Of a DNA stretch of 64,000 nucleotides, positions 42,501 through 47,354 are shown piece after piece (position 1 is the stretch's first letter; the number at the start of each line of letters is the position of its first letter). Where the stretch lies: assembly GCF_900129645.1 (NCBI RefSeq), contig NZ_FSQZ01000001.1, forward strand, positions 1,884,001 to 1,948,000, written 5' to 3'. The notes beneath the pieces were generated by a model. The model was not told the DNA's origin and did not search any database. It saw nothing but the letters and a program-made list of their open reading frames with translations. The translations under genes and the position numbers were made by a program. This stretch comes from Acetomicrobium flavidum (GTDB lineage: Bacteria; Synergistota; Synergistia; Synergistales; Acetomicrobiaceae).

Positions 42501-42835
42501 GGGAATCCTCGAGGGTCGTCCTCCTCGAGCATAACCTCGGGGGTCGGATCTTGAATCTTGAATTTTTCGTTGAATCCCTTGAAAAGCAACAAAGGGGTTC
42601 TTGAATATACTGAAAGTCAAAATATAATACCGATGTTTTGTAATTTACCAATAACGTAGCAAATCAATTTCTTATCGGTATAGAGAATTTTGGCCATATT
42701 CCTCATATTTTATACTTCTCAAATTCTCCCACTTGTTACGTGATCTTCATTAGCATATAATCGTTACGCAAACTGCGTAACGCATTTAGCGTAACAATGA
42801 ATGCGTAATAAGCAATAAAAGGTGGAAGGTAAATC
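42501..42835. other. intergenic stretch with a dispersed-repeat stub and GCGTAAC palindromes
   Basis: No gene is seen. CTCGAGG-CCTCGAG near 42508-42529 is a hairpin, possibly the end of the polysaccharide operon. At 42535-42567 is the first 33 bp of the GGGTCGGATC repeat that recurs at 43975 and 45944. GTTACGC-AAACT-GCGTAAC at 42763-42781 is a perfect palindrome, with two further GCGTAA copies at 42789 and 42803, just before the ATPase gene. Confidence 0.6.
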
Positions 42836-43974: not shown

Positions 43975-44440
43975 TCGAGGGTCGGATCTTTAATCTTGAA
44001 TTCTATGCTAATGTTTTAAAAATACAAGAAATAAGTTTACTAAAGCACCAAAACCCGAAATTAATGGTGCGAACACAATAGGGCTCCGTCGAATCTCCTG
44101 CCTGTCTTATGCTCTCGACATAGATCAAGACACCATGCAACGGATAGTAAAAGAACTTGGAGGTGAAAAAGTTATGCCGTCTGTGACAGAAAAGCTTATA
44201 AAACAGGGCAAGCAACAAGGTAAAAAAAGAAGGCGAAATTAAAGGCAAACAAGATCTGCTTATAAAACAACTGCGCCGAAAATTCGGTTTGTCATCATCT
44301 GACGAAAAGACGATCCGCTCCGTCACTGACGAATCCAAGCTTGACGCAGCAGCCGAAGCCGTGCTTGACGCTAAATCGAAAGACGAAATATTTAAAATAT
44401 TGGTCTGCTAAATCACATCTCTCCAGCACAAAAGTTCTTC
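43975..44440 (+). repeat. ~470-bp direct repeat, copy B (left of the TAC operon)
   Basis: It starts with TCGAGGGTCGGATC directly after the ATPase stop and ends in CTCTCCAGCAC. Copy C at 45944-46430 follows the same order with high identity, including the pseudogene it contains. A 33-bp stub lies at 42535. Confidence 0.85.
44066..44411 (+). pseudogene. Rpn/DUF4351-like C-terminal fragment, frameshifted
   Basis: Reads RRISCLSYALDIDQDTMQRI then VKELGGEKVMPSVTEKLIKQ, a stop after GKKRRRN, and in another frame KQDLLIKQLRRKFGLSSSDE, ending EIFKILVC. The Lys/Glu-Gly-rich linker followed by an LLxxLxRKFG helix is the tail of PD-(D/E)XK recombination-promoting nuclease (Rpn/YhgA-like) proteins. The nuclease domain is missing. 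Confidence 0.65.
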
Positions 44441-44533
44441 GTTTATCTGATGTGCTATGGAAGTATTGGATTTTTAGGAGATTTGGCAATGGCGGAAAAA
44501 ATGGGCGAAATAGGAAAATCACCTTTTGCCCTC

Positions 44534-44593
44534 TTGACAGTCAAACTTTTATGCGAGATAGTAGCATATACGAACTTAACATAGAGGTTAAGT
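44534..44593 (+). promoter_or_regulatory. promoter and operator of the TAC operon
   Basis: TTGACA at 44534-44539 and GATAGT at 44557-44562 are 17 bases apart. ACTTAAC (44574-44580) and GTTAAGT (44587-44593) form a perfect 7-bp inverted repeat with a 6-base spacer between the -10 box and the ATG at 44595, overlapping the ribosome site. This is a natural operator for the XRE-type antitoxin encoded by the second gene. Confidence 0.75.
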
Positions 44594-44594
44594 C

Positions 44595-44996
44595 ATGTTA
44601 GTATATGTGTTGATCTATGAGGATGTGTTTTCCGTTTATGCCCTGGAGAAAGATGACGGAAGTTGCGATATTGCGGAACTTCTTGATATTAGCTATTCCA
44701 AAAACAAAGAAGATGGAAACTTGCGTGCTGCAATGGTTAGAAGAATTCAGGGTTTAGCGAAGGGTAATTTGCCAATAAGCAATGTACATCATTCGATCGA
44801 TAAGGACATCTGGCAAATATCATCTGGGAAATACAGGTTATTGTATTTTTATGATGCTGGACGCCGAATAATTTGTACTCACTATTTTGTAAAGGAAAAG
44901 GACAAGACGCCACGCAAAGAAATCAGTAAGGCGCAAAAACACCGAGATGATTATTTTAAGGCTAAGAAAGAAAATACTATCAGATTTAAAGATTAA
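44595..44996 (+). CDS. higB: HigB/RelE-type toxin of a toxin-antitoxin-chaperone operon
   Basis: A 133-residue protein of the HigB/Gp49-like RelE superfamily. After an N-terminal strand comes VRRIQGLAKGNLPISNVHH, then IWQISSGKYRLLYFYDAGRRIICTHYF, the basic RNase-like strand pair of this family, and a Lys-rich C-terminal helix (KEKDKTPRKEISKAQKHRDDYF). Members cut mRNA on translating ribosomes. It is 13 bp upstream of an XRE antitoxin, with toxin first as in hig loci. The gene begins right at a palindromic operator. It is on the long side because of the C-terminal helix. Confidence 0.8.
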   Translation: MLVYVLIYEDVFSVYALEKDDGSCDIAELLDISYSKNKEDGNLRAAMVRRIQGLAKGNLPISNVHHSIDKDIWQISSGKYRLLYFYDAGRRIICTHYFVKEKDKTPRKEISKAQKHRDDYFKAKKENTIRFKD

Positions 44997-45009
44997 AGGG
45001 TGATAATAT

Positions 45010-45450
45010 ATGGCAAAAGTAGGGAGCAGGTTCAAAAAAATTTTTGAAGAGGCGCAGCAACACCCAGCCTACTGGATGGAGGATTTGAGGCTACAATTTC
45101 TCGAAGAGATTAGCGCAATAATGGAAAGTCAAGGAATTACGCAAAAGGAACTTGCGGATAGAATGGGGGTTTCTGAAGCCTACATAAGCAGGGTCTTCAA
45201 TGACAACGTCGAAAAGAATTTTACCCTTAACACTCTTGTAGAGCTCAGTAAAGCCGTGAATGCAGAGATAAAAATTATCGTAACTCCCAAAAAAGCAAAA
45301 GGGTCTGATTTGCTTTATCAACAGGAATGGTTCAAGCTTCTCCAGTCTCTTGATTGCCTTAATGAATATGAAAACGTTGCTCATGATGAAACTTTAAGTC
45401 AGGAATCGCATTCTCATGAAGACAAAAGCCTCAAACCCGTGGCGGCCTAG
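45010..45450 (+). CDS. higA: HigA-type XRE antitoxin with C-terminal chaperone-addiction-like tail
   Basis: A 146-residue protein. Residues 30-90 form an XRE helix-turn-helix: QGITQKELADRMGVSEAYISRVFN. The C-terminal part, from about LLYQQEWFKLLQSL through CLNEYENVAHDE, is longer than in ordinary HigA and hydrophobic, as in the chaperone-addiction (ChAD) tail of toxin-antitoxin-chaperone antitoxins, which a SecB-like chaperone must bind for the antitoxin to be stable. The next gene encodes just such a SecB-like protein. GGGTGATA precedes the ATG. It probably represses from the palindrome at 44574-44593. Confidence 0.82.
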   Translation: MAKVGSRFKKIFEEAQQHPAYWMEDLRLQFLEEISAIMESQGITQKELADRMGVSEAYISRVFNDNVEKNFTLNTLVELSKAVNAEIKIIVTPKKAKGSDLLYQQEWFKLLQSLDCLNEYENVAHDETLSQESHSHEDKSLKPVAA

Positions 45451-45494
45451 GTTCTAACGTGTAAAATGTAGATTTGAGAAGAAGGAGAATGGCA

Positions 45495-45962
45495 ATGACT
45501 GGCGACGGCGAAAAGCAAGTCCTACTTAAGGCTTATAATGCACCGCTAAAGCTAAAGAGCCTGTTTTTCCCCATTATCCACTATGAAGCAATTCCACATG
45601 AAAATCCAAAAGATGCCAGAGCTCCGAAGCTGAAGACCGTAAAGGCGATTCCTCAATGCGGAGATGATTTTAGAGAATGTTCTGTTTCGCTTGAAATCAA
45701 ATCCGAGAGATCGTCAGAAGAAACGAAGCTTCTCTATGAATACGAAATAGTGGTATTTGGTTCATTTAAATGGACAGCAGAAATGCCGGAGGATAAAGAT
45801 TTTTTATTGAAATCTTTGACTGTAACCGGAGCAAGCATCCTCTATTCCAGCGCAAGAGAAATGCTTGCCTATGTTTCTAGCCGCGGTCCATGGGGAAGGT
45901 GCATTCTTCCCACAATTAGCTTCATACCCGAGATCCGAGAACCTCGAGGGTCGGATCTTTAA
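45495..45962 (+). CDS. SecB-like chaperone of the TAC operon
   Basis: A 155-residue protein. The C-terminal LTVTGASILYSSAREMLAYVSSRG and CILPTISFIPEI correspond to the SecB pattern of PHLLFPYARE and PINF-type elements, and the beta-rich front (CSVSLEIKSERSSEETKLLYEYEIVVFGSF) fits the SecB fold. The ATG at 45495 has GGAG seven bases upstream. In tripartite TAC systems the chaperone folds and protects the antitoxin tail. The last residues (REPRGSDL) and the stop are encoded by the left end of repeat copy C, so the native tail has been replaced or the gene was joined to the repeat. Confidence 0.78.
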   Translation: MTGDGEKQVLLKAYNAPLKLKSLFFPIIHYEAIPHENPKDARAPKLKTVKAIPQCGDDFRECSVSLEIKSERSSEETKLLYEYEIVVFGSFKWTAEMPEDKDFLLKSLTVTGASILYSSAREMLAYVSSRGPWGRCILPTISFIPEIREPRGSDL

Positions 45963-46430
45963 TCTTGAATTTTAAGCTAATGTATTAAAATACAAAATAG
46001 GTTTTTTAGAGTACCAATATTCAAGATTGAAGGTGCGAACGTAATAGGGTTTCGTCGAATCTACTGCCGGTCTTACACTCTCGACGCAGACCAAGGCACG
46101 ATGCAACGGATAGCAAAAGAACTCGGGGGTGAAGAAATCATGCCGTCATTGGCAGAAAAATTGATAAAACAAGGGGAAGAAAGTGGCAAAATAGAAGGCG
46201 AAAAAAGAGGCGAGATTAAAGGTATAATCAAGGGCAAACAAGATCTGCTTATAAAACAACTGCGCCGCAAATTTGGCCTGTCATCATCTGACGAGAAGAC
46301 GATCCGCTCCGTCACCGACGAATCCAAACTCGACGCAGCAGCCGAAGCCGTGCTTGACGCTATCTCCAAAGACGAAATATTTAAAATATTGGTCTGCTAA
46401 ATCACATCTCTCCAGCACGAAGGTTGCTCG
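45944..46430 (+). repeat. ~470-bp direct repeat, copy C (right of the TAC operon)
   Basis: Same order as copy B: CGAGGGTCGGATC, about 75 bp of AT-rich spacer, the Rpn-like fragment, GGTCTGCTAAATCACATCT and CTCCAGCAC. It overlaps the 3' end of the SecB-like gene. Confidence 0.85.
46032..46400 (+). pseudogene. Rpn/DUF4351-like C-terminal fragment, frame intact
   Basis: The frame reads from RRIYCRSYTLDADQGTMQRI through MPSLAEKLIKQGEESGKI, a charged KIEGEKRGEIKGIIKGK linker, and KQDLLIKQLRRKFGLSSSDE to a stop at 46400. An ATG at 46101 could give a 99-residue peptide, but the nuclease domain is absent and the whole matches copy B, so it is treated as a fragment. Confidence 0.65.
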
Positions 46431-46460
46431 GTTATCATAATTTAAAAAGGAGTTAAACAA

Positions 46461-47354
46461 ATGCGCTTGAGCGAAAGGCCGCTTGATTTTGATTTCATAT
46501 TAAAACAGCTTCAAAGGGCACCGGATGCGCTAATGCCCTACAGGAAAGAGGTCGCGGCCCTGATTTTGTTCGGCTCTGCGAGTCGAGATGAGGTCACGCC
46601 TTTGAGCGATATCGACCTAGCAGTTTTGTACCGTGAAGGTTTAAGCGAATGGGAAATGTTTAAGATTCATTCAAATCTTTACATCGATCTCTCTCGGCTG
46701 ATGCACACGGATGACTTTGACTTAGTAAATCTAAACGTTGCACCGTTAACCCTGCAATTTAGCGCAATAGAAGATAAAGTCATCCTGGTCCTTTACGATC
46801 CTCAAGCCTTGGTCGATTTCCAGGCTAAGGTTTTGGGTGCTTACATGGACTTTTACCCGATTCTGCGGGAGCATTACAAGAGACTCATACATGCTTCGGA
46901 GGAACCTTCAATGGATATTAAATTAATGAATCAAATTGAATTGTTACAGGAATACATAAGTCGCCTTGAAAGGATTCGACAAAAGCCTATGGAAGAATAT
47001 CTAAAAGATGAAACTTTGCAGGCAGCGACGGAACGTTACTTGCAAATCGCAATCGAGACGTGCATAAACATAGGCAATCGTTTGCTTTCGTTGCATCAGT
47101 TTAAGGGCAATTTTAAGGCGCCAAAGACCTATGCAGATATCTTCAAAACACTTGCCTCGCTAAACGTCATCCCTGAAGACTTTGCCGACAAACTGGCTCG
47201 TATGTCCGCAATGCGCAACATCCTCGTCCATGTATATTGGGAAGTTGATAGCAAGTTAGTTTACCGCACAATCCACGATGAATTGGACGATTTCGGCAAA
47301 TTTCTTTCGTATGTAATGGCCTTTCTCAATAAGTTGGAGGAACAGAAAGGCTGA
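46461..47354 (+). CDS. MntA-HepT fusion: nucleotidyltransferase antitoxin joined to HEPN toxin
   Basis: A 297-residue single protein. Residues 1-120 are a minimal nucleotidyltransferase with LILFGSASRDEVTPLSDIDL, exactly the GS-x10-D-x-D motif of the MntA antitoxin. Residues 160-295 are a helical HEPN (DUF86/HepT-like) domain ending with MRNILVHVYWEVD, the R-x4-H-x-Y motif of the HepT RNase. In the known type VII system the two are separate genes and MntA adds AMP groups to the HepT tyrosine. Here they are covalently joined. AAGGAG is in front of the ATG-containing start. It lies 31 bases after repeat copy C and before the second 42-bp palindromic repeat. Confidence 0.85.
   Translation: MRLSERPLDFDFILKQLQRAPDALMPYRKEVAALILFGSASRDEVTPLSDIDLAVLYREGLSEWEMFKIHSNLYIDLSRLMHTDDFDLVNLNVAPLTLQFSAIEDKVILVLYDPQALVDFQAKVLGAYMDFYPILREHYKRLIHASEEPSMDIKLMNQIELLQEYISRLERIRQKPMEEYLKDETLQAATERYLQIAIETCINIGNRLLSLHQFKGNFKAPKTYADIFKTLASLNVIPEDFADKLARMSAMRNILVHVYWEVDSKLVYRTIHDELDDFGKFLSYVMAFLNKLEEQKG

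Follow-up and report, generated by a model that had tools for sequence, protein, structure and literature searches.

Organisation of the operon

The window analysed here is a 64,000-nt stretch of the genome of the anaerobe Acetomicrobium flavidum (phylum Synergistota), and all positions given below are those of the window unless another locus is named. Between two copies of a repeat it contains an operon coding for a HigB-type toxin, a HigA-type antitoxin and a SecB-like chaperone, the gene content of a toxin-antitoxin-chaperone (TAC) system. The features of the operon and its borders are as follows.

43975-44447, no strand assigned: upstream repeat copy bounding the operon, 82% identical to the downstream copy
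44534-44562, forward strand: sigma-70-like promoter, TTGACA (44534-44539), 17 nt, GATAGT (44557-44562), from a consensus scan
44574-44593, no strand assigned: operator-like inverted repeat ACTTAAC-ATAGAG-GTTAAGT, with the conserved core TTAAC-N6-GTTAA
44595-44996, forward strand: HigB-type toxin, 133 aa (Pfam Gp49, E=1.3e-12)
45010-45450, forward strand: XRE/HigA-type antitoxin, 146 aa (Pfam HTH_3, E=3.8e-11)
45295-45447, forward strand: C-terminal extension of the antitoxin beyond its DNA-binding domain, aa 96-146 (51 residues), a putative chaperone-addiction (ChAD) region
45439-45447, forward strand: codons for the Val-Ala-Ala C-terminus, a putative ssrA-like ClpXP degron, judged from the AA ends of relatives and the tmRNA tag
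45495-45962, forward strand: SecB-like chaperone, 155 aa (family profile, AlphaFold and Foldseek)
45944-46436, no strand assigned: downstream repeat copy, made up of a 28-bp GGGTCGGATCTTTAATCTTGAA-type element and an Rpn/DUF4351 gene remnant, a direct repeat of 43975-44447

All three frames are open, each with a ribosome-binding site, and the intergenic gaps are 13 bp (toxin/antitoxin) and 44 bp (antitoxin/chaperone), which confirms the gene order and spacing given in the initial annotation. The start of the chaperone was placed at the ATG at 45495, which has AAGGAG (45482-45487) 7 nt 5' to it. A longer reading from the TTG at 45474 was rejected, since the ribosome-binding site would then lie inside the gene and fits the ATG at 45495.

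The TTGACA-N17-GATAGT promoter and the perfect ACTTAAC/GTTAAGT operator that had been proposed are also present in the sequence. The 7-bp arms of the inverted repeat (44574-44580 and 44587-44593) match perfectly, and the repeat is located directly before the ribosome-binding site of the toxin, which it overlaps. By itself the promoter match is at chance level (4 sites found vs 3.5 +/- 1.9 expected), and a 7-bp inverted repeat occurs in 9% of shuffled upstream regions, or in 1.6% when it has to fall within the last 35 nt. We nevertheless consider both elements to be real, because they recur before the toxin gene in divergent homologous operons. The core TTAAC-N6-GTTAA is found about 20-33 nt 5' of the toxin start in seven further loci (L003, L004, L006, L008, L017, L020 and L073) and precedes the toxin gene in every intact HigBA-SecB locus examined, while the toxins behind this common core diverge to 18% identity with that of A. 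flavidum (alignment A4). Among the loci examined, it also precedes a fused toxin-antitoxin gene lacking SecB (L069/L095), and apart from this gene and the TAC loci it was observed once more, in 16 kb of another Acetomicrobium. Promoter boxes stand at the matching place in L003 (TTGACT-N17-GATAGT) and before the toxin genes of L006, L004, L008, L017 and L020; in the divergent homologous operons they are of the form TTGAC-N17/18-TATAAT-like, usually ahead of the operator core.

Toxin and chaperone

The toxin matches the HigB toxin of PDB entry 6af3 with E=1.8e-4 as a single sequence and 3e-8 as a family profile. In the 6af3 alignment, Arg81, Phe98, Lys100 and Lys104 align with catalytic-site residues of HigB (PMC9098466), and Gln74 and Ser76 stand at the usual Glu and Arg catalytic positions, occupied by Glu66 and Arg68 in the S. 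pneumoniae and M. tuberculosis proteins. By analogy with its family, the toxin would be a ribosome-dependent mRNA-cleaving enzyme.

The single-sequence match of the third protein to Pfam SecB is weak (E about 0.0054-0.006), and the cut-offs for canonical export SecB are not reached (16.9 bits vs 26 for Pfam, 17.5 bits vs 102.8 for TIGR00809). Its identity as a SecB is secure despite this score, because SecB chains are all that a profile of 17 Synergistota relatives matches in the PDB (best 1fx3, E=1.4e-7) and the best matches of its structural model are likewise all SecB. In the AlphaFold model (pLDDT 87, pTM 0.78) a long helix follows four strands, and the best 18 Foldseek matches are SecB proteins, including M. 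tuberculosis Rv1957, the TAC chaperone used as reference, with its ChAD peptide (5mtw, TM 0.62/0.69). The proposal that this protein is SecB-like was hence upheld at the level of fold. At its 3' end, the last six codons of the gene are supplied by the downstream interspersed repeat, and the protein is without the tail of about 20 residues seen in its nearest relative, L003.

No second SecB was found in the A. flavidum genome. This is the situation in most TAC genomes outside the alpha-, beta- and gamma-proteobacteria, more than 90% of which have one SecB only (PMC4257090). The chaperone was not recognised by PADLOC models, and a scan of genome contigs with the SecB-like protein alone returned no relatives. 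Viral contigs searched with the antitoxin alignment gave none and phage records no match; among plasmid records the sole match was a weak one (30%), to a Cupriavidus plasmid protein that carries a SecB annotation.

The antitoxin tail and its Ala-Ala end

The antitoxin is 64% identical to that of L003 over the first 93 aa, and its 51-aa tail is absent from most SecB-free relatives. This tail had been described as extended and hydrophobic. It is indeed extended, but its mean hydropathy (-0.80) is below that of the body (-0.29), and a helix predicted with low confidence at about residues 99-117 is merely neutral (-0.03), so that the second half of the description was dropped. The remainder of the tail after the helix is polar and disordered in the AlphaFold model, where pLDDT of the tail is about 40-53. 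Sequence similarity does not suffice to recognise a ChAD. However low the confidence in it, the helix (residues 101-117 in the model) holds Trp107, and a Trp is present at the matching position in L003, L004, L006 and L008. A Trp is central to ChAD binding, the key residue of M. tuberculosis HigA1 being Trp108 (PMC6377645). The modelled position of Trp107 is compatible with binding of the tail to a SecB-like tetramer.

The antitoxin ends in ...KPVAA; in the same genome, tmRNA encodes the tag ANENYALAA. An Ala-Ala end was found in 8/8 intact SecB-linked HigA antitoxins (VAA in A. flavidum, LAA in four, and GAA, TAA and IAA) vs 0/21 SecB-free relatives (Fisher p = 4.5e-7, run as 8/8 vs 0/19), where the eight, being of common descent, stand for fewer than eight independent events. 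Such an end is present in 2 of 151 long ORFs. The HicB proteins of HicA-HicB-SecB triplets have varied C-termini (QAA, NVA, NIA, ACA, KIS, QVS and LPS), and the strict AA end is therefore specific to the HigA type. In M. tuberculosis, HigA1 carries a Val-Ala ClpX degron at its end, inside the ChAD (PMC8165232), and a C-terminal ClpXP degron has also been published for the TAC antitoxin CmdA (CmdTAC, PMC11618068). Because such degrons are already published, the Ala-Ala end fits a known rule and makes no new one. Judged by its residues, Val-Ala-Ala would provide the ClpXP-type C-terminal degron expected of a TAC antitoxin.

Related loci in Synergistota

SecB-like relatives were found in 17 of 188 Synergistota genomes, seven genomes score over the Pfam SecB (PF02556) cut-off, and the antitoxin search yielded one further TAC (L073, G147). 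The toxin-HigA-SecB order was observed at eight loci in seven genomes, A. flavidum included; the remaining loci, the seven named above for their operator core, belong to six other Synergistota genomes. HicA-HicB-SecB triplets are present in seven genomes (L007, L009, L010, L011, L013, L016 and L018), and several SecB-like genes have no recognisable TA partner (L098-L100 and L104-L111). The earlier expectation was that a Synergistota TAC within a surface-glycan locus would be unusual. TACs are not rare in the phylum, where the survey gave HigBA-, HicAB- and CmdT-linked forms; HigBA-SecB TACs are widespread, though patchy, in Synergistota. No description of a Synergistota TAC was found in the literature searched, though one may exist elsewhere, and a survey's remark on Synergistetes is limited to their SecB sequences being unusually divergent (PMC4361572).

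Some loci, two of them (L103 and L101) added by a separate PF02556 search, depart from the common types. L103 (G049, 1498-2804) is CmdTAC/PD-T4-9-like, with an ADP-ribosyltransferase-like toxin, a 91-aa antitoxin ending in FLYAA and a SecB-like protein; its first and third proteins match the PD-T4-9 (CmdTAC) models. L101 (G060, 1498-2611) codes for a RelE-like toxin, a 112-aa protein of unknown family ending in LPCAA and a SecB-like protein, and could be a TAC whose antitoxin belongs to a family not yet described. In L069 (G040, 1078-1866; the same gene as L095, 3196-3984) HigB and HigA are fused in a 262-aa ORF that has the TAC operator in front of it, and neither SecB nor an AA end. This fusion is a natural chaperone-free derivative.

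Genomic setting

The operon had been placed within a surface-glycan locus. It is flanked by glycan genes on both sides, with a glycosyltransferase, sugar transferases, ManC-type, PGM, DegT and PglD genes at 34.6-42.5 kb, and a UDP/GDP-sugar dehydrogenase, Gfo/Idh, DegT and a flippase at 52.6-61.2 kb. It is, however, not a functional part of a glycan operon and sits in a variable, repeat-bounded TA island. The two blocks are separated by an ATPase, the TAC operon, an MntA-HepT fusion gene and a GH108 lysozyme. The MntA-HepT gene (46461-47354) is a single 297-aa ORF that joins an MntA-like nucleotidyltransferase antitoxin (GSX10DXD intact) and a HepT RNase toxin (RX4HXY intact). Both partners of a type VII toxin-antitoxin pair are thereby encoded in a single chain, and the fusion is 95% identical in three other Acetomicrobium species.

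The bounding repeat is matched in whole or part at 13 places in the genome. The interspersed element TCGAGGGTCGGATCTTTAATCTTGAATT occurs at 42537, 43975 and 45944 and at about 10 further places; it is clustered at the ends of variable genes and has in part an inverted partner (45951-45973/46016-46038). A REP-associated (Y1) transposase was considered as the source of the repeat, and none was found in the A. flavidum genome.

Comparison with congeners points to rearrangement of the island. In G015 the glycan block is joined directly to a repeat copy and the MntA-HepT gene, and in G012 and G014 pieces of the island are rearranged. G012 (Acetomicrobium sp. UBA5826; L065/L122) retains an orphan antitoxin whose sequence is truncated after residue 104 and continues into an Rpn remnant; it adjoins a decayed HicAB pair, and the toxin, the antitoxin tail and SecB are absent. 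The UBA5826 antitoxin region is 97-98% identical to that of A. flavidum (97% DNA identity over 363 bp in L065/L122; 98% in L094), and the TAC operon had no match in four other congeners. That L065 and L014 have each lost both the tail and SecB was not counted as evidence for coupling of the two, since a single deletion explains each case. TACs are mostly found in regions with signatures of transfer (PMC4257090), and in line with this the island is a place where TA-type genes come and go.

A probably chaperone-dependent antitoxin

Sequence analysis and modelling establish the gene content and order, the homologies, the SecB fold, the operator, and the antitoxin tail with its AA end. Those features of TACs that can be read from sequence are all found here, namely a type II toxin gene in first place, an extended HigA antitoxin, an adjacent gene for a SecB-fold protein, and conservation of the three genes as a unit. 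We consider it very likely that the operon is a TAC of the HigBA-SecB type whose antitoxin depends on the chaperone. By analogy with known systems, the antitoxin probably survives only while the SecB-like chaperone holds its tail.

RNase activity, repression, chaperone binding, proteolysis and the trigger are expected from what is known of the families, and on this basis the system may work as follows. HigA would bind and block HigB, and a HigA dimer would repress the operon at TTAAC-N6-GTTAA. The extension, with the Trp107 segment followed by Val-Ala-Ala, would be SecB-binding site and ClpXP degron in one. A SecB-like tetramer holding this tail would allow the antitoxin to fold and survive, guarded from ClpXP and from aggregation. 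Should other clients draw the chaperone away, be they secretory proteins in the unfolded state or a structural protein of a phage, ClpXP would destroy the antitoxin and the toxin would stop translation.

Dependence is not demonstrable by gene order alone, and the operon could be an ordinary two-component HigBA next to which a general or export chaperone happens to lie, the antitoxin being independent of it. The partnerless SecB-like genes of the phylum suggest that SecB may act alone in Synergistota. Against this, HigBA and the SecB-like gene are found together in seven genomes, and a long tail with an AA end is present in the linked antitoxins and lacking in their unlinked relatives. The single SecB of A. 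flavidum also argues against a plain general or export chaperone, and we regard this explanation as improbable. The TAC reading is chiefly put in doubt by the toxin's two altered catalytic positions and by the chaperone end that derives from the repeat. Both would also fit a decaying module, in which a former TAC is left with a toxin that is weak or dead, or with a chaperone that is damaged. Scrambling of the locus in G012, its absence from the other congeners searched and the clearly broken related operon L014 (G042) point the same way. Yet the three frames are open with their ribosome-binding sites, promoter and operator are intact, and the toxin keeps Arg81, Lys100 and Lys104, while its Gln/Ser pair recurs in the equally intact L003 operon. 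The core fold of SecB is, moreover, complete and confidently modelled, and decay seems to us just as poorly favoured an account.

A specifically anti-phage role, in which the chaperone senses a phage structural protein, would refine the TAC reading and does not exclude it. Such a role is published for two E. coli TACs, CmdTAC (T4 capsid; PMC11618068) and HigBAC (lambda tail protein; PMC11980606), and the TA/defence-like neighbours in the variable island (the MntA-HepT fusion and the ATPase) are in keeping with it. No trigger is visible in the sequence, however, and the lack of recognition by PADLOC also speaks against it; we hold this role to be a possibility, somewhat short of an even one. 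A wider proposal would unite the Synergistota TACs in a single lineage with a shared operator, in which the antitoxins imitate the -AA end of the host ssrA tag and compete for ClpXP with tmRNA-tagged proteins. How the toxin is set would depend on chaperone load in balance with ribosome-rescue load, and the operon would act as an alarm against phages, located in a variable defence island next to the surface-glycan (phage-receptor) genes. As a whole this is speculative, and we think it rather unlikely.

Comparison with known TAC systems

TACs of the HigBA-SecB kind are already known from other bacteria, and the Acetomicrobium example is new. It extends them to this genus with structural, operator and degron evidence. 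Within the Synergistota set, chaperone, tail and degron are each present in some members and missing from others, and these natural contrasts can serve to test what makes an antitoxin chaperone-dependent.

The HicAB-SecB TACs (e.g. that of Methylomonas methanica, PMC5105189, and the Synergistota triplets listed above) have, after the TA pair, a SecB-like protein that belongs to the same family (alignment A1), but with a HicA toxin and HicB antitoxin in place of HigB and HigA. CmdTAC/PD-T4-9 (PMC11618068) shares the tripartite order, the SecB-like chaperone and an antitoxin ending in an ssrA-like -AA; CmdT is, however, an ADP-ribosyltransferase and the N-terminal domain of CmdA is distinct, whereas A. 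flavidum has HigB and an XRE protein. Membership in CmdTAC was rejected, as the toxin is of the Gp49/HigB family and none of the three proteins matched PD-T4-9. The anti-phage TAC HigBAC of E. coli (PMC11980606), compared at the level of architecture, has the same arrangement of HigB, HigA and SecB-like HigC, and differs in that its phage trigger is known. The M. tuberculosis TAC (HigB1-HigA1-Rv1957; PMC5105189, PMC6377645, PMC8165232) likewise combines a Gp49/HigB toxin, an XRE HigA and a SecB-fold chaperone in third place, and its HigA extension has a Trp and a ClpX-type C-terminus. The toxins of the two systems differ at two positions in the catalytic site, and the chaperones share 11-14% identity in structural alignment. 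The antitoxin tails are unrelated in sequence save for the Trp, and end in VAA in A. flavidum and VA in M. tuberculosis.
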